Shown here piece by piece: positions 29,345 through 36,872 of a stretch of DNA of 64,000 nucleotides. Under the pieces are notes generated by a model, which did not search any database, was not told the DNA's origin, and worked only from the letters and a program-made list of their open reading frames with translations. A program made the translations under genes and the position numbers. This DNA comes from Lawsonibacter asaccharolyticus (GTDB lineage: Bacteria; Bacillota; Clostridia; Oscillospirales; Oscillospiraceae): NCBI GenBank assembly GCA_003112755.1, contig BFBT01000001.1, positions 2,790,001 to 2,854,000 on the forward strand, given 5' to 3'. How positions within the stretch are numbered: the first letter of the stretch is position 1; each line of letters begins with the position of its first letter.

Positions 29345-30835
29345 CATAAGATGCTTTTAGCGTATGGGCAATATGGTTCTGCTACAAGGAAGGATACTTC
29401 CTTAATTTTCCTCCAGAGATGCCAGATATTCTTTTACTCTGCCATAATAGATGCGCAGGAACTTGTTGGCGCCGGCTGTCATGTAAACCAGATAGGGTTT
29501 GCCCTCGGCTCGTTTCTTGTCCATGAAACGGTATACCGGGTCATCCTGGGGCTGTGTTTTCAGTAGGCAGTCCATAACCAGGAATAAGGCGCGGCGCAGC
29601 TCCGGCGGCCCGCTTTTGGAAACCCTTGTGCTCTTAGCCTCGTGAGTGCCGGACTGGTCAGCGCCAGGGTCAACGCCCGCAAAAGCGGTAATGGCGTTTC
29701 GGTGGGTAAACCGGGCCACATCCCCAAGCTCCGCCATAAGCTGAGGGCCGAGAGAATCGCCTACACCGTGCATGGCCATGACCACAGGGTATTCCGGGAG
29801 CTGGGCTGCCAGGGCCTGCATTTCAGCCTTGAGCCGTTCCAGAGAGGCAGAGACGGCGTTCAGCGCATCAATGGCCTGCCGGACCATGGTTTTGGTCAGA
29901 GCGTCCTTGGGGAGCATGGCAATCAGGTCCTGTGCTCCGGTGTGGACCTCAACGGCTTTGCTCTGGCTGAAGTTGTAGCCATGCCGTTTACACCACTTAC
30001 GGTAACGCTCGGCAAAGGCAGTGAGGCTCATGTTTCGCACACAGTCCACATGCCAAAAGGCCGTGGCAAAGTCCACCCACTTCTGGCTGCCGTCCTCACG
30101 GACAGGGCTGTCAAATAGGGCGTTGACGCCGGGATAGGTCTGGTCAAGAAGGGCGATGAGGTTGTTTTTCATCATCGTCTTAGTCTTAGCGTATAGACTC
30201 TGCTGCCGGTTCAGCGTTTTCAGTTGCATTCGAATCGTATCCATGGGTGTATGTTGGCGCAATTCTGCCCAGTTGTCAAGCCCATAGCGGGCAATCTTCC
30301 GGGCATCTGCCTTGTCTGTTTTCACTTTTCGCAGGGTGTTGTTCCCGTAGTCTTTGATAAGCTTCGGATTGACTGCGCTGACAAAGACGCCCTCCTCATG
30401 AAGAAAACGGGCTACCGGCTCATAGTACCGTCCGGTATGCTCCATGACTACTCGTGTCTCACCGTCCAGGCTTTTCAAGTAGTCTGCCAGCTCCTTGAGT
30501 TCACTGCCGGTGTGACCAATAGAAAATGGTTTTGCTACCACTTCTCCAAAAGGGCGGAGAACGGATACCATGCTCTTTCCTTTGGAAACATCGATCCCTG
30601 CCACATTGTTCATATTGATCGCTCCTCATCATGGATTTGTTTTGGCGACCAGCCATTCCACCATTGCCGATCCAATCTATTTGATGACACGGGCGCACCA
30701 AGGAGGTGGCTCAACCTGCATAAATCGAACGCTGCGAATGAGAGGCCGGCTGACGGACTTCGTCACGGACGCGCTGGTCCTTGGAGGTATACATCAGGCC
30801 AAGACTCTCTCATTCTAACAGCTTAGGCAACGATG
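29345..30835 (-). mobile_element. IS110-family insertion sequence (ends approximate)
   Basis: One complete-looking IS110 element, inserted between the XRE regulator and the ribbon-helix-helix genes. IS110 elements lack clear terminal inverted repeats, so the limits are estimated from neighbouring genes. The 220-base non-coding part upstream of the transposase (about 30614-30835) is where IS110 elements are known to encode a bridge RNA that selects target and donor. Confidence 0.7.
29402..30613 (-). CDS. IS110-family transposase (DEDD recombinase)
   Basis: A 403-residue transposase. The RuvC-like DEDD set is Asp8 (GIDVSKG), Glu58 (VMEHTGRYY), Asp100 and Asp103 (KTDKADA). The C-terminal Tnp20 domain shows GVGDSLGPQLMAELGD and STRVSKSGPPELRRALF, including the conserved Ser region used in strand exchange. 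The length is normal for the family and there is no frameshift, so the element may be active. Confidence 0.95.
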   Translation of the reverse strand: MNNVAGIDVSKGKSMVSVLRPFGEVVAKPFSIGHTGSELKELADYLKSLDGETRVVMEHTGRYYEPVARFLHEEGVFVSAVNPKLIKDYGNNTLRKVKTDKADARKIARYGLDNWAELRQHTPMDTIRMQLKTLNRQQSLYAKTKTMMKNNLIALLDQTYPGVNALFDSPVREDGSQKWVDFATAFWHVDCVRNMSLTAFAERYRKWCKRHGYNFSQSKAVEVHTGAQDLIAMLPKDALTKTMVRQAIDALNAVSASLERLKAEMQALAAQLPEYPVVMAMHGVGDSLGPQLMAELGDVARFTHRNAITAFAGVDPGADQSGTHEAKSTRVSKSGPPELRRALFLVMDCLLKTQPQDDPVYRFMDKKRAEGKPYLVYMTAGANKFLRIYYGRVKEYLASLEEN

Positions 30836-31775: not shown

Positions 31776-31911
31776 GCGCAGAAATTGCGCCGCAAAAACA
31801 AAGAGAAAAGCCTCCGGAAAAATGTGAATTGTTTGATAACTCTGCCTCCTGCCGCTGGATAATTTTCTCTTTCTGCGGTATGTTGTGTTGCTACAAAGGA
31901 GGTGTATCATC

Positions 31912-33114
31912 ATGGCAAAGCGCAGGCCGTCCGGCGACGGCATGGTGCGGAAAAAGGAAGACGGCCGCTGGGAGGGCAGGATCGTGGTAGGCCATAAGCA
32001 AAACGGCGAGCCTATCTTCCGGTATGTATACGGCCGCACGCAGAAGGAGTTGCTGAGCAAACTCCACCAGAGCATCGAGACCTATCAGGATGTAGAACTG
32101 ACCGAGGACAGCCGCATGACATTGGATGAGTGGCTGGATCACTGGCTGGACGAGTACAAAGAGGGCACTATCCGCCCCAGTACCATGTACGGCTACCGGC
32201 AGTATGCCAAACACTACATCAAGCCGATCCTGGGCGATAAGGTGATCTCCCGCATCACCTCAACGGATATTCAGCGGATGTACACCAGGCTGAAGCGGGA
32301 GGGACGCGTCCACGAGCATCCGGAGTACGGACATCAGCTCTCTGACTCCATGCTCTCCCGCATCCACGCCATGCTCCACCACGCCATGAAAGATGCCCAG
32401 CGCGCGCACCTGATCGCCAGGAATCCCACAGAGGGCACAGTGGTTCCCAAGCCCAACTACCGGCCCAAGCAGATCCTGAACGAGGAGCAGCTGGACACCT
32501 TCCTGGAGGCCATCGAGCAGGATGAGGTGTGGCGGGACTTCTTCTACACCGAACTGACCACCGGCCTGCGCCGGGGTGAGATCTGCGGCCTCCAGTGGGA
32601 GGACTTCGACGAAGCGGAGGGGACCCTCAAAATCGTCCGGTCGGTCAGTTCCCGCAAAGCCGGCGCGCTGGAGATTGGAGAGACCAAAACCAACAAGGGC
32701 CGGCGTACCATCTCCCTGCCGGACAGCACAGCCCAGCGTCTGCGGGAACGCAAGAAAGCGGCCATCAGCCAGTGGATCTTCCCAACCCCACTGCACCCGG
32801 AGGAGCCGGTCAACCCCAGCTATGCCTACCACCGGTTGAAAACGATCCTGAAAAACACGGGACTGCCCAGCATCAGGTTCCACGATTTACGTCACACTTT
32901 TGCCACCCACGCCCTGGCCGGCAGCGTGGACGCCAAGACCCTCTCCGGCATCCTGGGACACACCAACGCCAGCTTCACCCTGGACACCTACACCCATGTG
33001 ACCGGCGATATGCAGAAACAGGCGGCGAACATCGTGGGGGACTTCATGACAGACATCTTGGGAGAGGAGTGGAAACCGTGGCAAGAAAGCGAAAGAACGG
33101 CGAGGGAACCGTAA
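31912..33114 (+). CDS. Tyrosine-type site-specific integrase 1
   Basis: A 400-residue tyrosine recombinase. An AP2-like arm-binding domain spans residues 8-45 (DGMVRKKEDGRWEGRIVVGHK), a SAM-like core-binding domain 65-170, and the catalytic domain 190-375. Catalytic residues: Arg220 (TGLRRGE), His324 and Arg327 (FHDLRHTF), His350 (LGHTN) and Tyr360 (LDTYTH). The start at 31912 has GGAGGT. It ends 37 bases inside integrase 2, so the pair is co-translated. Confidence 0.95.
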   Translation: MAKRRPSGDGMVRKKEDGRWEGRIVVGHKQNGEPIFRYVYGRTQKELLSKLHQSIETYQDVELTEDSRMTLDEWLDHWLDEYKEGTIRPSTMYGYRQYAKHYIKPILGDKVISRITSTDIQRMYTRLKREGRVHEHPEYGHQLSDSMLSRIHAMLHHAMKDAQRAHLIARNPTEGTVVPKPNYRPKQILNEEQLDTFLEAIEQDEVWRDFFYTELTTGLRRGEICGLQWEDFDEAEGTLKIVRSVSSRKAGALEIGETKTNKGRRTISLPDSTAQRLRERKKAAISQWIFPTPLHPEEPVNPSYAYHRLKTILKNTGLPSIRFHDLRHTFATHALAGSVDAKTLSGILGHTNASFTLDTYTHVTGDMQKQAANIVGDFMTDILGEEWKPWQESERTAREP

Positions 33115-34703
33115 GGCTTCGCAAGGACGGCCGCTGGGAGGGCCGGGTGGTCATCGGTTACGATGAAAAGAACCGTCCCAAAACCAAGAATGTCCTGGCC
33201 AAGACAAAGAGCGAATGCGTGGAGAAGCTAAAGCAGCTGCAGGAGCAGTACGCTCCACCCAAGTCGGACAAGGTCAAGCCTGACATGCCCTTCGGAGAGT
33301 GGATGGACTTCTGGTATCAGAATTACTCCAAGCCGAAGCTCCGGCCCACCACCCAGGCGGGCTATGAGAACAGGATCTACCAACACATCATCCCGGAACT
33401 GGGCAGTATTCCCCTTGACCAGCTGACGCAGAATGATTTGCAGCAGTTCTACGCCCGGCTAAAGAGGAGTGGACGCCTCCTGAATGCAGAGCACTACGGC
33501 GAGAGTCTATCTGACACTGTGGTTCGTGGGTGCCACGCCAACTGCCGGTCCGCCTTGGAAAGAGCGGTGCTGGAGGGCCTGATCCGCGTGAATCCAGCCG
33601 TCGGCTGCAAGCTGCCGCCCAAGAAGGCCCGGGAGATGCAGGTGCTGACCCGTGAGGAGATCCAGCGGTTTCTGATCCAGGCCAAGGCGGAGGGATACTT
33701 CGAGCTGTTTCTGCTGGAGCTGACCACCGGCCTGCGCCGGGGAGAACTGCTGGCCCTCCAGTGGGATGACCTGAACTTTGAAAACGGAGAGTTGAAGATT
33801 ACCAAACAGGTCTACCGTACAAAAGAGAATGGACTCCTGATCTCCCAGCCCAAGACGAAGTCCTCTATCCGCACGGTCAGCCTGCCTCCGCCGCTCCTGG
33901 CCATTCTGAAAGAGTACAGGGAGTGCGTAAATTCCCGGTGGATGTTCCCCTCGCCGGTCAAGGAAGACTCGCCGCTGGACCCGGCCTACATCAGAACACG
34001 GCTGCACCTCATTCTGGAACACGCCCAATGCAAGCAAATCAGATTTCATGATTTGCGGCACACTTTTGCAACGGTGGCCCTGGGCAGCGGGATGGATGTA
34101 AAGACCCTCTCCGCCACGCTGGGCCACGTTTCGGCGGCCACCACCCTGGACATCTACACCCACATCACCAATCCGATGCGGTCCGAGGCGGCGGCAAAGA
34201 TCGACCAGAGAATCGCAAAGGTCGACCCCAAGGAGAAAGAAATGGCGTCGAAGCAAGCATCGGAGACAGCCCCGCAGCCCTTCGTCCCCTTCATTCCCTA
34301 CAACGGCAAGATCCGAAAGCCCGGCACCGGATGTATCACCCAGATCAGCGAACACTGCTGGGAGGGGCGCTACTCTCCGGTGTGGCCGGACGGCAAGAAG
34401 CACTCCCGGAATGTGTACGCCAAAACGCGGGAGGAGTGCGAGGCCCTCCTGCCTGGGCTGATCCAGCAGATGAAAGCGGAGATCAGGGCCATCAAGGAGA
34501 GCGGAAACCTGGATGCCATCCCGGACGGGATCAGCGAAAAGAAGAAAGCAATCGCCGCCTATCTGCGAGAACATCCAGAGGTCACCAGCAAGAGCGCCAT
34601 CGCCAGGGCGGTGGGGACAGACAGAAGCACCGTGCGGAAGTATTACAATGAGATCCGAAGTGAGTTGGGGCTGAAATTAAATCAAGAAGTGTGTTACAAT
34701 TAA
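33078..34703 (+). CDS. Tyrosine-type integrase 2 with extra C-terminal arm-like domain
   Basis: A 541-residue tyrosine recombinase starting at GTG 33078 (GGAGAGGAG upstream). The first 375 residues parallel integrase 1, with catalytic Arg220, His324/Arg327, His350 and Tyr360 at the same positions. Residues 411-457 form a second arm-type unit: WEGR, then a turn, then NVYAKTREECEAL, mirroring WEGR...NVLAKTKSECVEKL at 20-50. A homeodomain-like HTH (KSAIARAVGTDRSTVRKYY) ends the protein. Paired integrases recall TnpA/TnpB of Tn554, where both recombinases are needed. The terminator at 34718 follows. Confidence 0.92.
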   Translation: MARKRKNGEGTVRLRKDGRWEGRVVIGYDEKNRPKTKNVLAKTKSECVEKLKQLQEQYAPPKSDKVKPDMPFGEWMDFWYQNYSKPKLRPTTQAGYENRIYQHIIPELGSIPLDQLTQNDLQQFYARLKRSGRLLNAEHYGESLSDTVVRGCHANCRSALERAVLEGLIRVNPAVGCKLPPKKAREMQVLTREEIQRFLIQAKAEGYFELFLLELTTGLRRGELLALQWDDLNFENGELKITKQVYRTKENGLLISQPKTKSSIRTVSLPPPLLAILKEYRECVNSRWMFPSPVKEDSPLDPAYIRTRLHLILEHAQCKQIRFHDLRHTFATVALGSGMDVKTLSATLGHVSAATTLDIYTHITNPMRSEAAAKIDQRIAKVDPKEKEMASKQASETAPQPFVPFIPYNGKIRKPGTGCITQISEHCWEGRYSPVWPDGKKHSRNVYAKTREECEALLPGLIQQMKAEIRAIKESGNLDAIPDGISEKKKAIAAYLREHPEVTSKSAIARAVGTDRSTVRKYYNEIRSELGLKLNQEVCYN

Positions 34704-34717
34704 CAAGCCCAAGTCAT

Positions 34718-34758
34718 AAAGTCGCCGCTGGATTCAATGCAACTGCGGCGGCTTTATT
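34718..34758. terminator. Shared terminator of integrase 2 and the reverse transcriptase
   Basis: Eleven-base stem AAAGTCGCCGC/GCGGCGGCTTT (one G-T pair) then ATTTTTAC on the plus strand and TATGACTT on the minus. The last codons of the reverse transcriptase lie inside it. Confidence 0.75.
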
Positions 34759-35726
34759 TTTACAGGATTATCAAAAGCGAATTTTCGAATGTGAGGATAA
34801 GCCGACTTATCAACTTGCCGGGCAGCAGTTATTAGCCCTCGCAACCGCTGGCGACTTTTAATATCAGCCGGATTATTTTGCAAATATTCGTATTCAACCA
34901 TAATCTTTTTTCGGAGCGCATTTTTGATCGTAGCCTTGCCCTCGCTATTAATTATAACCCCCGTTACTAATTTGGGATACGTTTTGGAATATCCTTTGAC
35001 CTTTTTCCGAGATACTTGGTAATTATATTTTTTGATAAGTGACAACACTGATTGTCTAAATTCTGATGAAATCTTATGTTCGCTTGAAAATATCACATCA
35101 TCTACATAGACGGTCATTGTTACATTGTTCTTGTCTGATAAAGACTGCAATTCATCAAACATTTTGTGATTAACCAAGTATGACAGGATTTGGCTTGTTG
35201 GCGCCCCGGAAATCAAATGGTTATAATATTTAACCCCTTTGTTAGCCAAGAAATCATAAACTTCCAACAGGTTGCTTTGGTTGAGCTTTTTAAGGTCAAC
35301 GGTAGTTAAATTCGTCAATATCTCAGCAACATCAGGAGAGCAACACAAATCTTCAAAGAAAAAACGGTAGACTGTTTCTCTACTGATCGAGGGGAAAAAA
35401 GCAGTCAAATCAATTTTGTATAAATTCCGCTTACTCTTACCCAAATGGAGACGAGCATTATCAGAATATGATTTTCCCTTAATACCAGAAAAAACATTAT
35501 CGGGCACTTGGATTTTTCCCAATAATGTTTTCATTCGTTTTTGCACAGTTTTCAATTCAGCCTGCGGGGGCTCAATGAGTCGAGGTTTTTTCGTTTTATC
35601 AATATAGGGACTAATCATTGAAACAACGCAGTCCTGTCTTAATAAATCACCGTTTTTAATACGTAGAACATATTTCAACATTTTTTTGGATTGAATTCCG
35701 TACAGTGGACAATCAGTATATTTCAA
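34734..35726 (-). CDS. Retron-type reverse transcriptase
   Basis: A 330-residue retron-like reverse transcriptase. Motifs in order: Asp106 (KIDLTAFFPSI), GAPTSQILSYLVN, the catalytic YVDD at 207-210, and VTG at 244-246, the tripeptide typical of retron enzymes. No maturase, endonuclease or CRISPR-linked domain is present. Retron RTs copy part of a structured RNA (msd) into branched msDNA and work with an effector against phage. The start is TTG at 35726 behind GAGGTG. The gene is markedly more AT-rich than its neighbours, so it is a recent import. Confidence 0.88.
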   Translation of the reverse strand: MKYTDCPLYGIQSKKMLKYVLRIKNGDLLRQDCVVSMISPYIDKTKKPRLIEPPQAELKTVQKRMKTLLGKIQVPDNVFSGIKGKSYSDNARLHLGKSKRNLYKIDLTAFFPSISRETVYRFFFEDLCCSPDVAEILTNLTTVDLKKLNQSNLLEVYDFLANKGVKYYNHLISGAPTSQILSYLVNHKMFDELQSLSDKNNVTMTVYVDDVIFSSEHKISSEFRQSVLSLIKKYNYQVSRKKVKGYSKTYPKLVTGVIINSEGKATIKNALRKKIMVEYEYLQNNPADIKSRQRLRGLITAARQVDKSAYPHIRKFAFDNPVKIKPPQLH

Positions 35727-35762
35727 AAGGCATTACACCTCAATTCTTAAAATGTGCTGGTG

Positions 35763-35981
35763 TTAGCTGTTGACTACTTTACCGATTATCCAACGGACAA
35801 AATCGGGAAGTAGTTCAGGGCAGCAGCAGGATACAGCCAGTACGGCTACCGCAATCAACGCAACGATAATCACGCCGATTGCGACAGCGGAGGAATGAGA
35901 GCGAGTCTCATTCAGGGAAACCTTATTATTGTCACCGTTGGTATTGATGATGACAATATTCGGCTTGTCCGCTTTCTTCAC
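35763..35981 (-). CDS. Small membrane protein upstream of the retron-like RT, 72 aa
   Basis: The sequence is soluble and polar to about residue 28 (NIVIINTNGDNNKVSLNETR), then one transmembrane helix (about 31-52, VAIGVIIVALIAVAVLAVSCCC) and a short amphipathic tail. Start at GTG 35981, eight bases after GGAGG; a GTG at 35990 overlaps the SD itself. It lies 36 bases before the RT on the same strand. By position it could be a membrane-perturbing retron effector, but I know of no characterised homologue. The SD is buried in a hairpin (35991-36050). Confidence 0.6.
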   Translation of the reverse strand: MKKADKPNIVIINTNGDNNKVSLNETRSHSSAVAIGVIIVALIAVAVLAVSCCCPELLPDFVRWIIGKVVNS

Positions 35982-35990
35982 GGAATTCAC

Positions 35991-36050
35991 CTCCTTGTTA
36001 TTATTGGCCCCAAAAACTGAGGGGACTTCCCGTCCGCCAATAACAAGGAG
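35991..36050 (-). promoter_or_regulatory. Hairpin sequestering the ribosome site of the small membrane protein
   Basis: On the minus strand CTCCTTGTTATTGGC (from 36050) pairs with GCCAATAATAACAAGGAG (to 35991), leaving a 3-base bulge and a 27-base loop. The right arm includes the AAGGAG of the membrane-protein gene, so folding should block translation until it is opened. Confidence 0.65.
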
Positions 36051-36059
36051 ATACTGCAG

Positions 36060-36339
36060 CCTTATATCCTAATTCGCACCAGCACAAATCCGACTTCCCA
36101 AACAGTTTTGTCCTGTTCAGCTTAACACCCAATCACCATACACCGCCACAACGAGACACGCATACACACTGGCTACATGGACAGCTACTGTGTCGCCGTG
36201 TCCGTGTGTCACAGTGTCGGGGTGGACGGGTGCTAATGGCACTTCTGCCGGAAAAAATGCATCTATACCCGTAGGTACGACGCCGCCCGCTTTTTTATCG
36301 CGAGCCAAACGAAGTCTGATCTGACTGCTCGTACTGACA
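36060..36339 (-). ncRNA. Candidate retron msr-msd RNA
   Basis: A 280-base leader between a strong promoter and the membrane-protein gene. It starts with small stem-loops (AGTC-AGATCA-GACT inside GAGC...GCTC), as in an msr. It then has a long imperfect hairpin whose outer arms are TTAACACCCAATCACC (36122-36137) and GGTGGACGGGTGCTAA (36221-36236), 12 of 16 positions pairing, spanning 115 bases, as in an msd. Placement upstream of the RT on the same strand also fits. I could not find a convincing a1/a2 end pair beyond TTGTC/GACAA. A short reading frame across it is probably not coding. Confidence 0.45.
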
Positions 36340-36345
36340 AGTTGC

Positions 36346-36374
36346 ATTATACCACATCTGATGGAAAATGTAAA
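36346..36374 (-). promoter_or_regulatory. Promoter of the retron-like unit
   Basis: Minus-strand TTTACA and TATAAT with a 17-base spacer. It drives the leader, the membrane protein and the RT. Confidence 0.65.
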
Positions 36375-36481
36375 ATAATAGATTGTAAATTCAACCATAT
36401 AGGACTATGGCTATTTTAAAGCTTGCCATTCTGAAGACAGGACTGAAATAGTCTCAGAAATTGCGCCGCAGTAAACAAGAC

Positions 36482-36515
36482 AAATCCCCTCTGGAGCAAG
36501 CTCCAGAGGGGATTT
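36482..36515 (-). terminator. Terminator of tRNA-Pro
   Basis: Fifteen-base perfect stem AAATCCCCTCTGGAG/CTCCAGAGGGGATTT, 4-base loop, then GTCTTGTTT on the minus strand; it begins at the tRNA 3' end. Confidence 0.75.
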
Positions 36516-36590
36516 GGTCCGAGATGGGAGACTCGAACTCCCGGCCTGATGGTCCCAAACCACCCGCGCTACCAACTGCGCTAATCCCGG
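36515..36590 (-). tRNA. tRNA-Pro (anticodon TGG), complete
   Basis: A 76-base tRNA read on the minus strand. Acceptor stem CCGGGAT/ATCTCGG, D arm GCGC-AGTTGGTA-GCGC, anticodon arm GGTGG-TTTGGGA-CCATC with anticodon TGG, T arm GGGAG-TTCGAGT-CTCCC, discriminator A and an encoded CCA. It has its own promoter (36608-36636) and terminator. It lies inside the presumed mobile element. Confidence 0.95.
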
Positions 36591-36757: not shown

Positions 36758-36781
36758 GGATAGGTCATCTATCCTCCCAAA
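36758..36781. other. Probable right attachment junction in tRNA-Pro anticodon loop
   Basis: The tRNA-Pro fragment ends with its loop TTTGGGA at 36775-36781. Directly beyond it is a perfect dyad GGATAG-GTCAT-CTATCC (36758-36774) instead of the 3' half of the anticodon stem. Tyrosine recombinases often cross over in tRNA anticodon loops, and two integrase genes lie 2 kb inside. Confidence 0.5.
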
Positions 36782-36812
36782 GCAGGCGCGCTACCAACTG
36801 CGCTACACCCGG
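36775..36812 (-). pseudogene. 5' half of a second tRNA-Pro (TGG), truncated
   Basis: Minus strand CCGGGTG TA GCGC AGTTGGTA GCGC G CCTGC TTTGGGA, complete from the acceptor 5' strand through the anticodon loop, then unrelated sequence. It differs from the intact copy in the acceptor and anticodon stems, so it is a different gene and not a duplicate. Its promoter is intact. The missing 3' half is not in this window. Confidence 0.8.
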
Positions 36813-36872
36813 ATAATTTGATTTTCCTGTAAGGAGTCAGTGCTCTGCAGATAAAGACTGCTACTGTTTCAT

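Follow-up and report, generated by a model that had tools for sequence, protein, structure and literature searches.

We propose that a 1.65-kb unit in Lawsonibacter asaccharolyticus, lying at 34.7–36.4 kb on the minus strand of a 64-kb stretch of contig BFBT01000001.1 (positions 2,790,001 to 2,854,000; this whole stretch of 64,000 nucleotides is referred to below as the window), is a retron whose transcript keeps a small membrane peptide silent until infection releases it. We consider this reading, taken jointly with the proposal that the cassette represents a complete retron that moves horizontally and belongs to a clade neighbouring type VI, to be rather probable from the sequence comparisons described here. 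Judged by its reverse transcriptase (RT), by the repeat of its putative non-coding RNA (ncRNA) and by the linkage of its parts, the window locus is a retron, and the retron-like unit that an initial annotation of the window had placed at 34734–36374 is confirmed, as the cassette recurs across loci beyond chance. The order is promoter, structured RNA, hairpin leader, membrane open reading frame (ORF) and RT, which together are probably a single transcript. The features of the cassette are as follows:

36346–36374, minus strand: promoter, with −35 TTTACA, a 17-nt spacer and −10 TATAAT with TG in front
36085–36323, minus strand: msr-msd-like ncRNA, from a1 to a2 (fold z −8.0)
36311–36323, minus strand: a1, the 5′ arm of the inverted repeat (CAGATCAGACTTC; helix 1)
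36258–36306, minus strand: msr stem-loops SL1 (36285–36306) and SL2 (36259–36284), from the RNAalifold consensus and covariance model R1
36124–36234, minus strand: long msd-type hairpin, the probable (predicted) template of the multicopy single-stranded DNA (msDNA), variable in sequence and length between loci
36085–36097, minus strand: a2, the 3′ arm of the inverted repeat (GAAGTCGGATTTG; helix 1)
36094–36099, minus strand: first copy of the hexamer GGGAAG, overlapping a2 (hexamer scan)
36077–36084, minus strand: 5′ arm of helix C, in the 3′-terminal part of the RNA (TGCTGGTG) and complementary to the 3′ arm
35991–36050, minus strand: hairpin B, in which CTCCTTGTTATTGGC (36036–36050) pairs with AATAACAAGGAG (35991–36002) and GCC (36006–36008), burying the Shine-Dalgarno sequence
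36026–36031, minus strand: second copy of the hexamer GGGAAG, within the Shine-Dalgarno hairpin (hexamer scan)
35988–35995, minus strand: Shine-Dalgarno sequence of the membrane ORF (AGGAGGTG), 7 nt ahead of the GTG at 35981
35763–35981, minus strand: one-helix membrane protein of 72 aa with a GTG start, the probable effector
35755–35762, minus strand: 3′ arm of helix C (CACCAGCA), immediately following the membrane ORF's stop codon and complementary to the 5′ arm
34734–35726, minus strand: retron RT of 330 aa with a TTG start, closest profile RT_VI
34711–34754, minus strand: G+C-rich inverted repeat spanning the end of the RT gene (from the fold), a possible terminator and cassette edge

In the mechanism that we favour, the RT would make msDNA from the retron RNA, and the peptide would be a membrane-disrupting effector whose synthesis, and perhaps activity, would be held low by the retron transcript together with the RT. 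Interference by a phage with the RT, the RNA or the msDNA would open the RNA or free the peptide, and the freed peptide would depolarise the membrane and abort the infection. The duplicated GGGAAG, with one copy overlapping the a2 arm and the other inside the Shine-Dalgarno hairpin, would probably connect the RT or a1 to this lock, as either of them could recognise both sites; a1, the partner of the first copy, might switch to the second.

The window RT is, by its motifs, profiles and phylogeny, a retron RT. The YVDD and VTG motifs of the initial annotation are borne out and are joined by NARLH in the form NAxxH; NAxxH, YxDD and VTG are the motif names of retron-class RTs, and the N-A-H, V-D-D and T-G positions are invariant across 12 aligned RTs. 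The best PADLOC profile is RT_VI (2e-74, with the runner-up at 2.7e-38), which is likewise the best profile for the RTs of L018, L021 and L034, and ten of the 12 PDB sequences matched by the window RT are named retron RTs, such as Kva2, Ec83 and Ec86. In a tree of 36 RTs, from which L048 was left out as it has stops in frame as cut, the 20 RTs accompanied by a membrane peptide form one clade (support 98/94), the 10 RTs of loci with a helix-turn-helix gene (HTH-type loci) form a neighbouring group at moderate support (88/88; 90% of 200 bootstrap trees), and these two together are split from six other retron RTs at 100/100. The grouping of the RT had been named beforehand as one of two outcomes by which the initial annotation might be refuted; the window RT does not group with group II intron enzymes or with those of diversity-generating retroelements (DGRs), and its neighbours are type VI retron RTs. 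The window enzyme resembles group II intron, DGR and defence-associated reverse transcriptase (DRT) enzymes in being a bacterial RT, in the DRTs also one beside an ncRNA, but the profiles put it with the retrons and rule these assignments out, the group II RT/maturase model reaching E=0.0025 and retron profiles scoring best. The ratio of nonsynonymous to synonymous divergence (dN/dS) of the RT is 0.06–0.10 in the six pairs with the window for which dS is defined.

The whole unit is present in nine other loci at 76–92% DNA identity and, as two pieces at 69–77%, in a tenth (L010), the hosts belonging to several genera. RTs 65–95% identical to that of the window occur in ten loci and an eleventh has its last third only; the records of the ten are mostly of Clostridia/Oscillospiraceae (Merdimmobilis hominis, Clostridium methylpentosum, Faecalibacterium hattorii, Pseudoflavonifractor), with one of Erysipelotrichaceae. 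In eight loci (L001, L002 and L004–L009) the DNA similarity runs from 36342–36410 down to 34733–34780 and then ends; in L003 it begins farther out, at 36516, and ends with the contig, and L010 has its two weaker pieces. Beyond the cassette, these relatives match the 64-kb window at one further place only, over 144 bases belonging to an ordinary gene, in L009. Because of these sharp limits, the unit looks like a mobile block of 1.65 kb. It is present in one copy in the host genome and its occurrence is sparse: at the level of the order the RT is found in 4 of 394 genomes and at that of the class in 6 of 391, the host's own genome included each time; with an alignment as query, 5 of 120 genomes of the family, again counting its own, have a match. 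More distant relatives come from further genomes and from viral contigs. Among the latter, the window RT as sole query finds no relatives and a 22-base pattern of the RNA occurs in none, and the alignment query finds 16 loci, four of which (three distinct) belong to the window clade. The presence of the clade on contigs classed as viral (L034–L037) suggests that phages or prophages may carry the retron too.

The link between RT and peptide is consistent. In each of the 20 distinct loci aligned, an ORF of 54–73 aa with one hydrophobic helix directly precedes the RT, separated from it by 26–37 nt (36 nt in the window), the RTs of these loci being 45–100% identical to the window RT. Left out of this set are the copies and near-copies L003, L008, L013, L014, L019, L035, L050–L053, L055–L057 and L060, among which the membrane ORF was seen in L003, L008, L013, L014, L019, L035 and L056, as well as L011, which has the 3′ part of the RT only. 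Within the 120 family genomes a peptide profile and the RT match the same five only, adjacent each time, and 112 homologues of the peptide were found by sequence. The initial annotation was right about a one-helix protein directly upstream of the RT and about its 72 residues: the ORF listing gives 75 aa from an upstream GTG, and the start at GTG 35981 is backed by a matching start in relatives. The other refuting outcome named beforehand, homologous loci that lack both the leader fold and the membrane gene, did not occur either, as leader and membrane gene are retained in all 20 loci. Both ORFs, RT and peptide, are intact throughout this set, and since no other conserved ORF is seen within the 1.65-kb unit there is no other candidate effector in it. 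An ORF of 93 aa inside the ncRNA (36117–36398) was considered and rejected, as it matches no PADLOC family and the relatives show RNA of variable length there and no conserved ORF.

In closer relatives the ends of the peptide are conserved outside the hydrophobic stretch, with KK-x-D-K-P ... GDNNKV in the N-terminal part and CCPELLPDFVRW in the C-terminal part. The dN/dS of the peptide ORF is 0.24–0.69 over 11 pairs with the window, and its synonymous divergence is low relative to that of the RT (0.23 versus 1.22 between the window and L007, for example), which may reflect constraint at the RNA level or recombination. The peptide has no informative family match and no PADLOC model at E up to 1. 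The role supposed in the initial annotation, that of a putative effector that would permeabilise the cell, fits.

The RNA between the promoter and the peptide has the msr-msd layout in the predicted fold: a shared repeat, two stem-loops and a long variable hairpin. In the window the repeat is of 13 nt, with 12 of 13 pairs formed, and encloses two small stems followed by the long hairpin. The leader folds at −125.5 kcal/mol compared with −90.6 ± 5.0 in 200 dinucleotide shuffles, none of which is as stable (z −6.9), and the small stems and long hairpin of the initial annotation are upheld by this. For the stretch from a1 to a2, z is negative in every one of the 20 loci and ranges between −8.0 and −1.0, with 60 shuffles per locus, and the closing helix 1 shows changes on both sides at 8 of its 13 pairs over the 20 loci, with 82% of cells paired.

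Covariation supports three predicted helices, namely the closing inverted repeat, the stem that buries the Shine-Dalgarno sequence and the long-range helix C. Over 42 named pairs and 20 sequences, 87.6% of the cells are paired against 42–51% in six controls in which the partner is slid by 1–3 columns, a comparison in which the named structure, being derived from the window, has an advantage over the controls. Both sides have changed at 20 pairs and in 51 cells, compared with 10.7 and 18.2 ± 3.5 in shuffles. RNAalifold, given the alignment of 11 loci and no helices, recovers helix C and hairpin B as well as a1/a2, SL1 and SL2. The leader was also cast as a covariance model (R2), which, trained on 11 loci, finds each of seven held-out divergent loci once and at the correct place (E from 0.03 to 1e-14), L036 and L037 among the seven being near each other; it also matches four near-copies of training loci and the window, as expected, with an extra window match at E=2.4 that is chance, and it matches none of 10 HTH-type loci and none of six other retron loci. 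The covariance model of the 5′ msr region (R1) does less well and detects two of the seven.

Hairpin B sits between a2 and the peptide, and its 3′ strand holds the Shine-Dalgarno sequence. In a local fold the Shine-Dalgarno hexamer of the window peptide has an unpaired probability of 0.007, which is below that of all 33 Shine-Dalgarno-bearing window ORFs compared (median 0.41), and in the other 19 loci the value is 0.004–0.19. The arms of helix C co-vary, TGCTGAGG pairing with CCTCAGCA in L059 and GAGTTGAC with GTCAACTC in L018, and by eye also in L021; over nine loci the pairing within a locus exceeds that in permuted loci (p 0.0008 for the stem score and 0.0018 for the duplex energy). The hexamer common to a2 and hairpin B is present in all 20 loci in the variants GGGAAG, GGGATG, GGGGAG and GGGAGA, with more than one match in L015, L034 and L054. 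When loci are permuted the mean number sharing it is 9.0 and 20 is reached in none of 5000 permutations, these tests ignoring relatedness and the hexamer pattern having been picked post hoc. A further pairing, helix E, between a 5′ element near a1 and the loop of the Shine-Dalgarno hairpin, has a permutation p of 0.02 in 10 window-clade loci, a value that bears on whether a1 could pair with the second hexamer copy; in 10 HTH-type loci p is 0.47 and we make no claim for it there.

Several observations weigh against the reading of a peptide silenced by its transcript. The better-described retrons, such as Eco8, Ec86 and Ec83, hold the effector at the protein level through RT-msDNA, as set out in a 2026 commentary (PMC13158370), and a translational lock may thus serve only to set a low dose. 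The family searches with the peptide are uninformative, and among 10 neighbouring proteins picked from other loci one (of UvrD type) has a clear likeness to defence proteins and two have generic or partial ones. To the advantage of the named structure over its controls and the limits of the permutation tests, given above, are added the number of further pair types, the one of five measures that does not lie above shuffles (39 versus 37.6; 166/500 shuffles), and the low yield of model R1. The burial of the Shine-Dalgarno sequence is weaker in six relatives (unpaired 0.11–0.19). Tested locus by locus, the helix C duplex gives p values of 0.002–0.16, and by duplex energy some loci pair equally well or better with the 3′ arm of another locus. 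When sequences are folded singly, 18 of the 20 loci close the inverted repeat, L054 preferring another fold and the input for L004 having started within a1, and the TGG after a1 is invariant among loci, a sequence that does not by itself fix the branching guanosine.

The main rival explanation is a classical retron acting at the protein level, in which a steady low amount of peptide would be kept harmless by direct binding to RT-msDNA, and the helices would set the ratio of products and protect the msr-msd RNA. We regard this as unlikely but as deserving serious consideration, given that the better-known retrons are so described in PMC13158370 and that the conserved N- and C-terminal parts of the peptide in closer relatives could be contact surfaces; by itself it leaves the covarying Shine-Dalgarno stem, the placement of helix C around the ORF and the copied hexamer unexplained. 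It is also conceivable, with still lower probability, that the peptide has an accessory role in the membrane, as an anchor or sensor to which the RT or the msDNA would be recruited, the phage-killing activity being elsewhere or absent. The short length of the peptide and its lack of a known family would suit such a role, for which strong translational locking would be odd; moreover, no other conserved ORF that could be an alternative effector is seen in the unit, and the HTH-type loci have at the same place a differently built small ORF that is also membrane-seeking.

Helix C raises the question of whether the helices autoregulate the RT only. Its 3′ arm is placed between the peptide stop and the RT start, and from its position shortly ahead of the RT Shine-Dalgarno sequence it could tune translation of the RT to the supply of ncRNA; the peptide ORF would then serve for coupling, as a leader peptide. 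We think this improbable, since the stem that is best detected in held-out loci covers the ribosome site of the peptide and not that of the RT, and since the amino-acid sequence of the peptide is conserved. A decayed or chance arrangement without function, to which the patchy occurrence of the cassette in the order and class might point, we give hardly any weight in view of the low dN/dS of the RT, the intact ORFs in the 20 aligned loci and the spread between genera.

The relation of this retron to type VI, which is defined in PADLOC by RT_VI and HTH_VI, deserves comment. The window RT best matches RT_VI, the two RT clades are adjacent, and both kinds of locus have the same order of structured RNA, small membrane-seeking ORF, (HTH) and RT. 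They differ in that no HTH ORF lies between RNA and RT in the window-clade loci examined, where peptide and RT are so closely spaced, in the hydrophobic one-helix peptide of the window as opposed to a cationic amphipathic one of 47–54 aa in type VI, in an insert of about 25 residues in the window-clade RT relative to three aligned HTH-type RTs, and in a leader that model R2 does not extend to the HTH-type loci. We do not class the window retron as type VI, since it lacks the HTH partner that defines the type and its RT stands beside and not within the HTH-type group. The initial annotation had the retron, its leader and its membrane gene, and missed both this kinship with type VI and the helices that bury the ribosome-binding site of the peptide.

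All ten distinct HTH-type loci with upstream sequence available contain the 47–54-aa cationic amphipathic ORF, situated between the ncRNA and the HTH gene and 31–66 nt before the latter (L020, L030, L031, L033, L038/L066, L039/L063, L048, L061, L062 and L064; in L038/L066 and L039/L063 the automatic rule ranked another ORF first and the second was chosen by position and likeness). The one of these ORFs that was examined matches no PADLOC model; some records carry the ORF as a hypothetical protein and others lack it in their gene tables, the plasmid tables being incomplete. The set omits L032 (truncated upstream, though retained in the tree), L068 (in which the pattern detects no HTH), L041 (the same as L039), L040, L042, L043, L046, L047 and L049 (not read), and L044 and L045 (no HTH recognised). 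In runs on 12 loci, the ten distinct ones with L065 and L067, the Shine-Dalgarno region of the small ORF is mostly paired in eight (unpaired 0.10–0.31), intermediate at 0.39 in one and open in three (0.60–0.62). Pairing in the manner of helix C tends to be possible between the 3′ end of the RNA and the bases that follow the small ORF, with permutation p values of 0.03 for the stem score and 0.002 for the duplex energy over the 10 loci and 0.02–0.67 for the 12 taken singly; helix C in HTH-type loci is thus suggestive only. The occurrence of the small ORF in all ten loci suggests that membrane-active peptides may be a common and overlooked part of type VI-like retrons. More tentatively, it is possible, though we would not call it likely, that all type VI-like retrons are RNA-locked peptide toxins, in which a small membrane-active peptide would be the true effector, with its mRNA within the retron transcript and silenced by it, and the HTH protein would be a regulator missing in the window clade; through the shared motif, a1 or the RT would bind the Shine-Dalgarno hairpin as well as the msr-msd RNA, and loss of RT or msDNA function would switch the peptide on. 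Two viral contigs (L044 and L045) encode RTs about 30–33% identical to the window-clade RTs, with a Lys/Arg-rich ORF of 75 aa upstream that is hydrophobic in its C-terminal half and with no HTH recognised; this ORF is possibly a third type of partner.

Two other systems invite comparison. Type IV retrons such as Ec48 have a two-helix membrane effector, and the window cassette is like them in that a membrane protein partners a retron RT, but its RT matches RT_VI best by about 36 orders of magnitude and its 72-aa peptide has a single helix and matches no PADLOC model. Type I toxin-antitoxin systems place a small membrane toxin under RNA control, and share with the window locus a small hydrophobic protein whose Shine-Dalgarno sequence is predicted to be buried in structured mRNA; the RNA element of the window differs in being a retron msr-msd in cis, followed by an RT, and antisense RNA was not looked for. 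The window retron would work like a type I system solely in having a membrane peptide closed off by RNA. Titles and beginnings of abstracts yielded no one-helix peptide retron and nothing on the small ORFs of type VI retrons, though either may already be described elsewhere. Transmembrane proteins are listed among uncharacterised retron effectors in PMC13158370, and there is thus nothing new in a membrane effector by itself; the described retrons there restrain enzyme effectors through RT-msDNA binding. If our reading is correct, a tiny membrane peptide locked translationally by retron RNA helices would be a new wiring of infection sensing to cell death and would join retrons to the logic of type I toxin-antitoxin systems, and the similar ORF in ten HTH-type loci would alter the presumed effector of type VI retrons. 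As the unit is only 1.65 kb, the effector idea can be tested quickly.

The edges of the cassette are in keeping with a discrete unit. The promoter of the initial annotation holds up as TTTACA-17-TATAAT, with 11 of 12 consensus positions, and is the top one of 10 promoter-like sites in the scan, in which 4.6 were expected; −10-like sequences are present in relatives too, and several plus-strand sites reach 9–10 of 12 positions, a score that is no evidence of function. At the other end, where relatives that are neither cut nor weak lose similarity at 34733–34780, the inverted repeat at 34711–34754 is not among the calls of a terminator scan of the window. The sole Rfam match at gathering level in the window is a tRNA, and at a relaxed level the region 35720–36420 gives a single chance match (E=1.1).

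Near the cassettes of some relatives there are genes with a likeness to defence proteins, a UvrD-type helicase in L001 (6264–8465, minus strand) that matches GajB/DRT-helicase models and an FRG-domain protein in L002 (6087–7061, plus strand), consistent with defence neighbourhoods in some hosts. In the window, two tandem tyrosine integrase genes with Phage_integrase and SAM-like domains (31885–34703, plus strand) face the retron; two small ORFs lie ahead of them, one of which has a ribbon-helix-helix match that falls short of its cut-off, and the stretch has the look of an integrative island ending at the retron. On the opposite side a tRNA-Pro (TGG) lies at 36515–36590 on the minus strand, about 140 bp upstream of the retron promoter. 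Of 19 relatives scanned for tRNA genes, L059 carries a tRNA-Pro (TGG) some 340 bp ahead of the cassette, L017 and L018 each carry a tRNA-Leu less than 400 bp from where the RT ends, and 13 have none in the available stretch. A segment at about 36760–36815 resembles part of a tRNA (GCGCTACCAACTGCGCTACACCCGGAT) and is perhaps the remnant of an attachment site, although ARAGORN reports no gene there. Farther out, at 29402–30613 on the minus strand, an ORF of 403 aa encodes what we take to be a protein resembling an IS110-type transposase.

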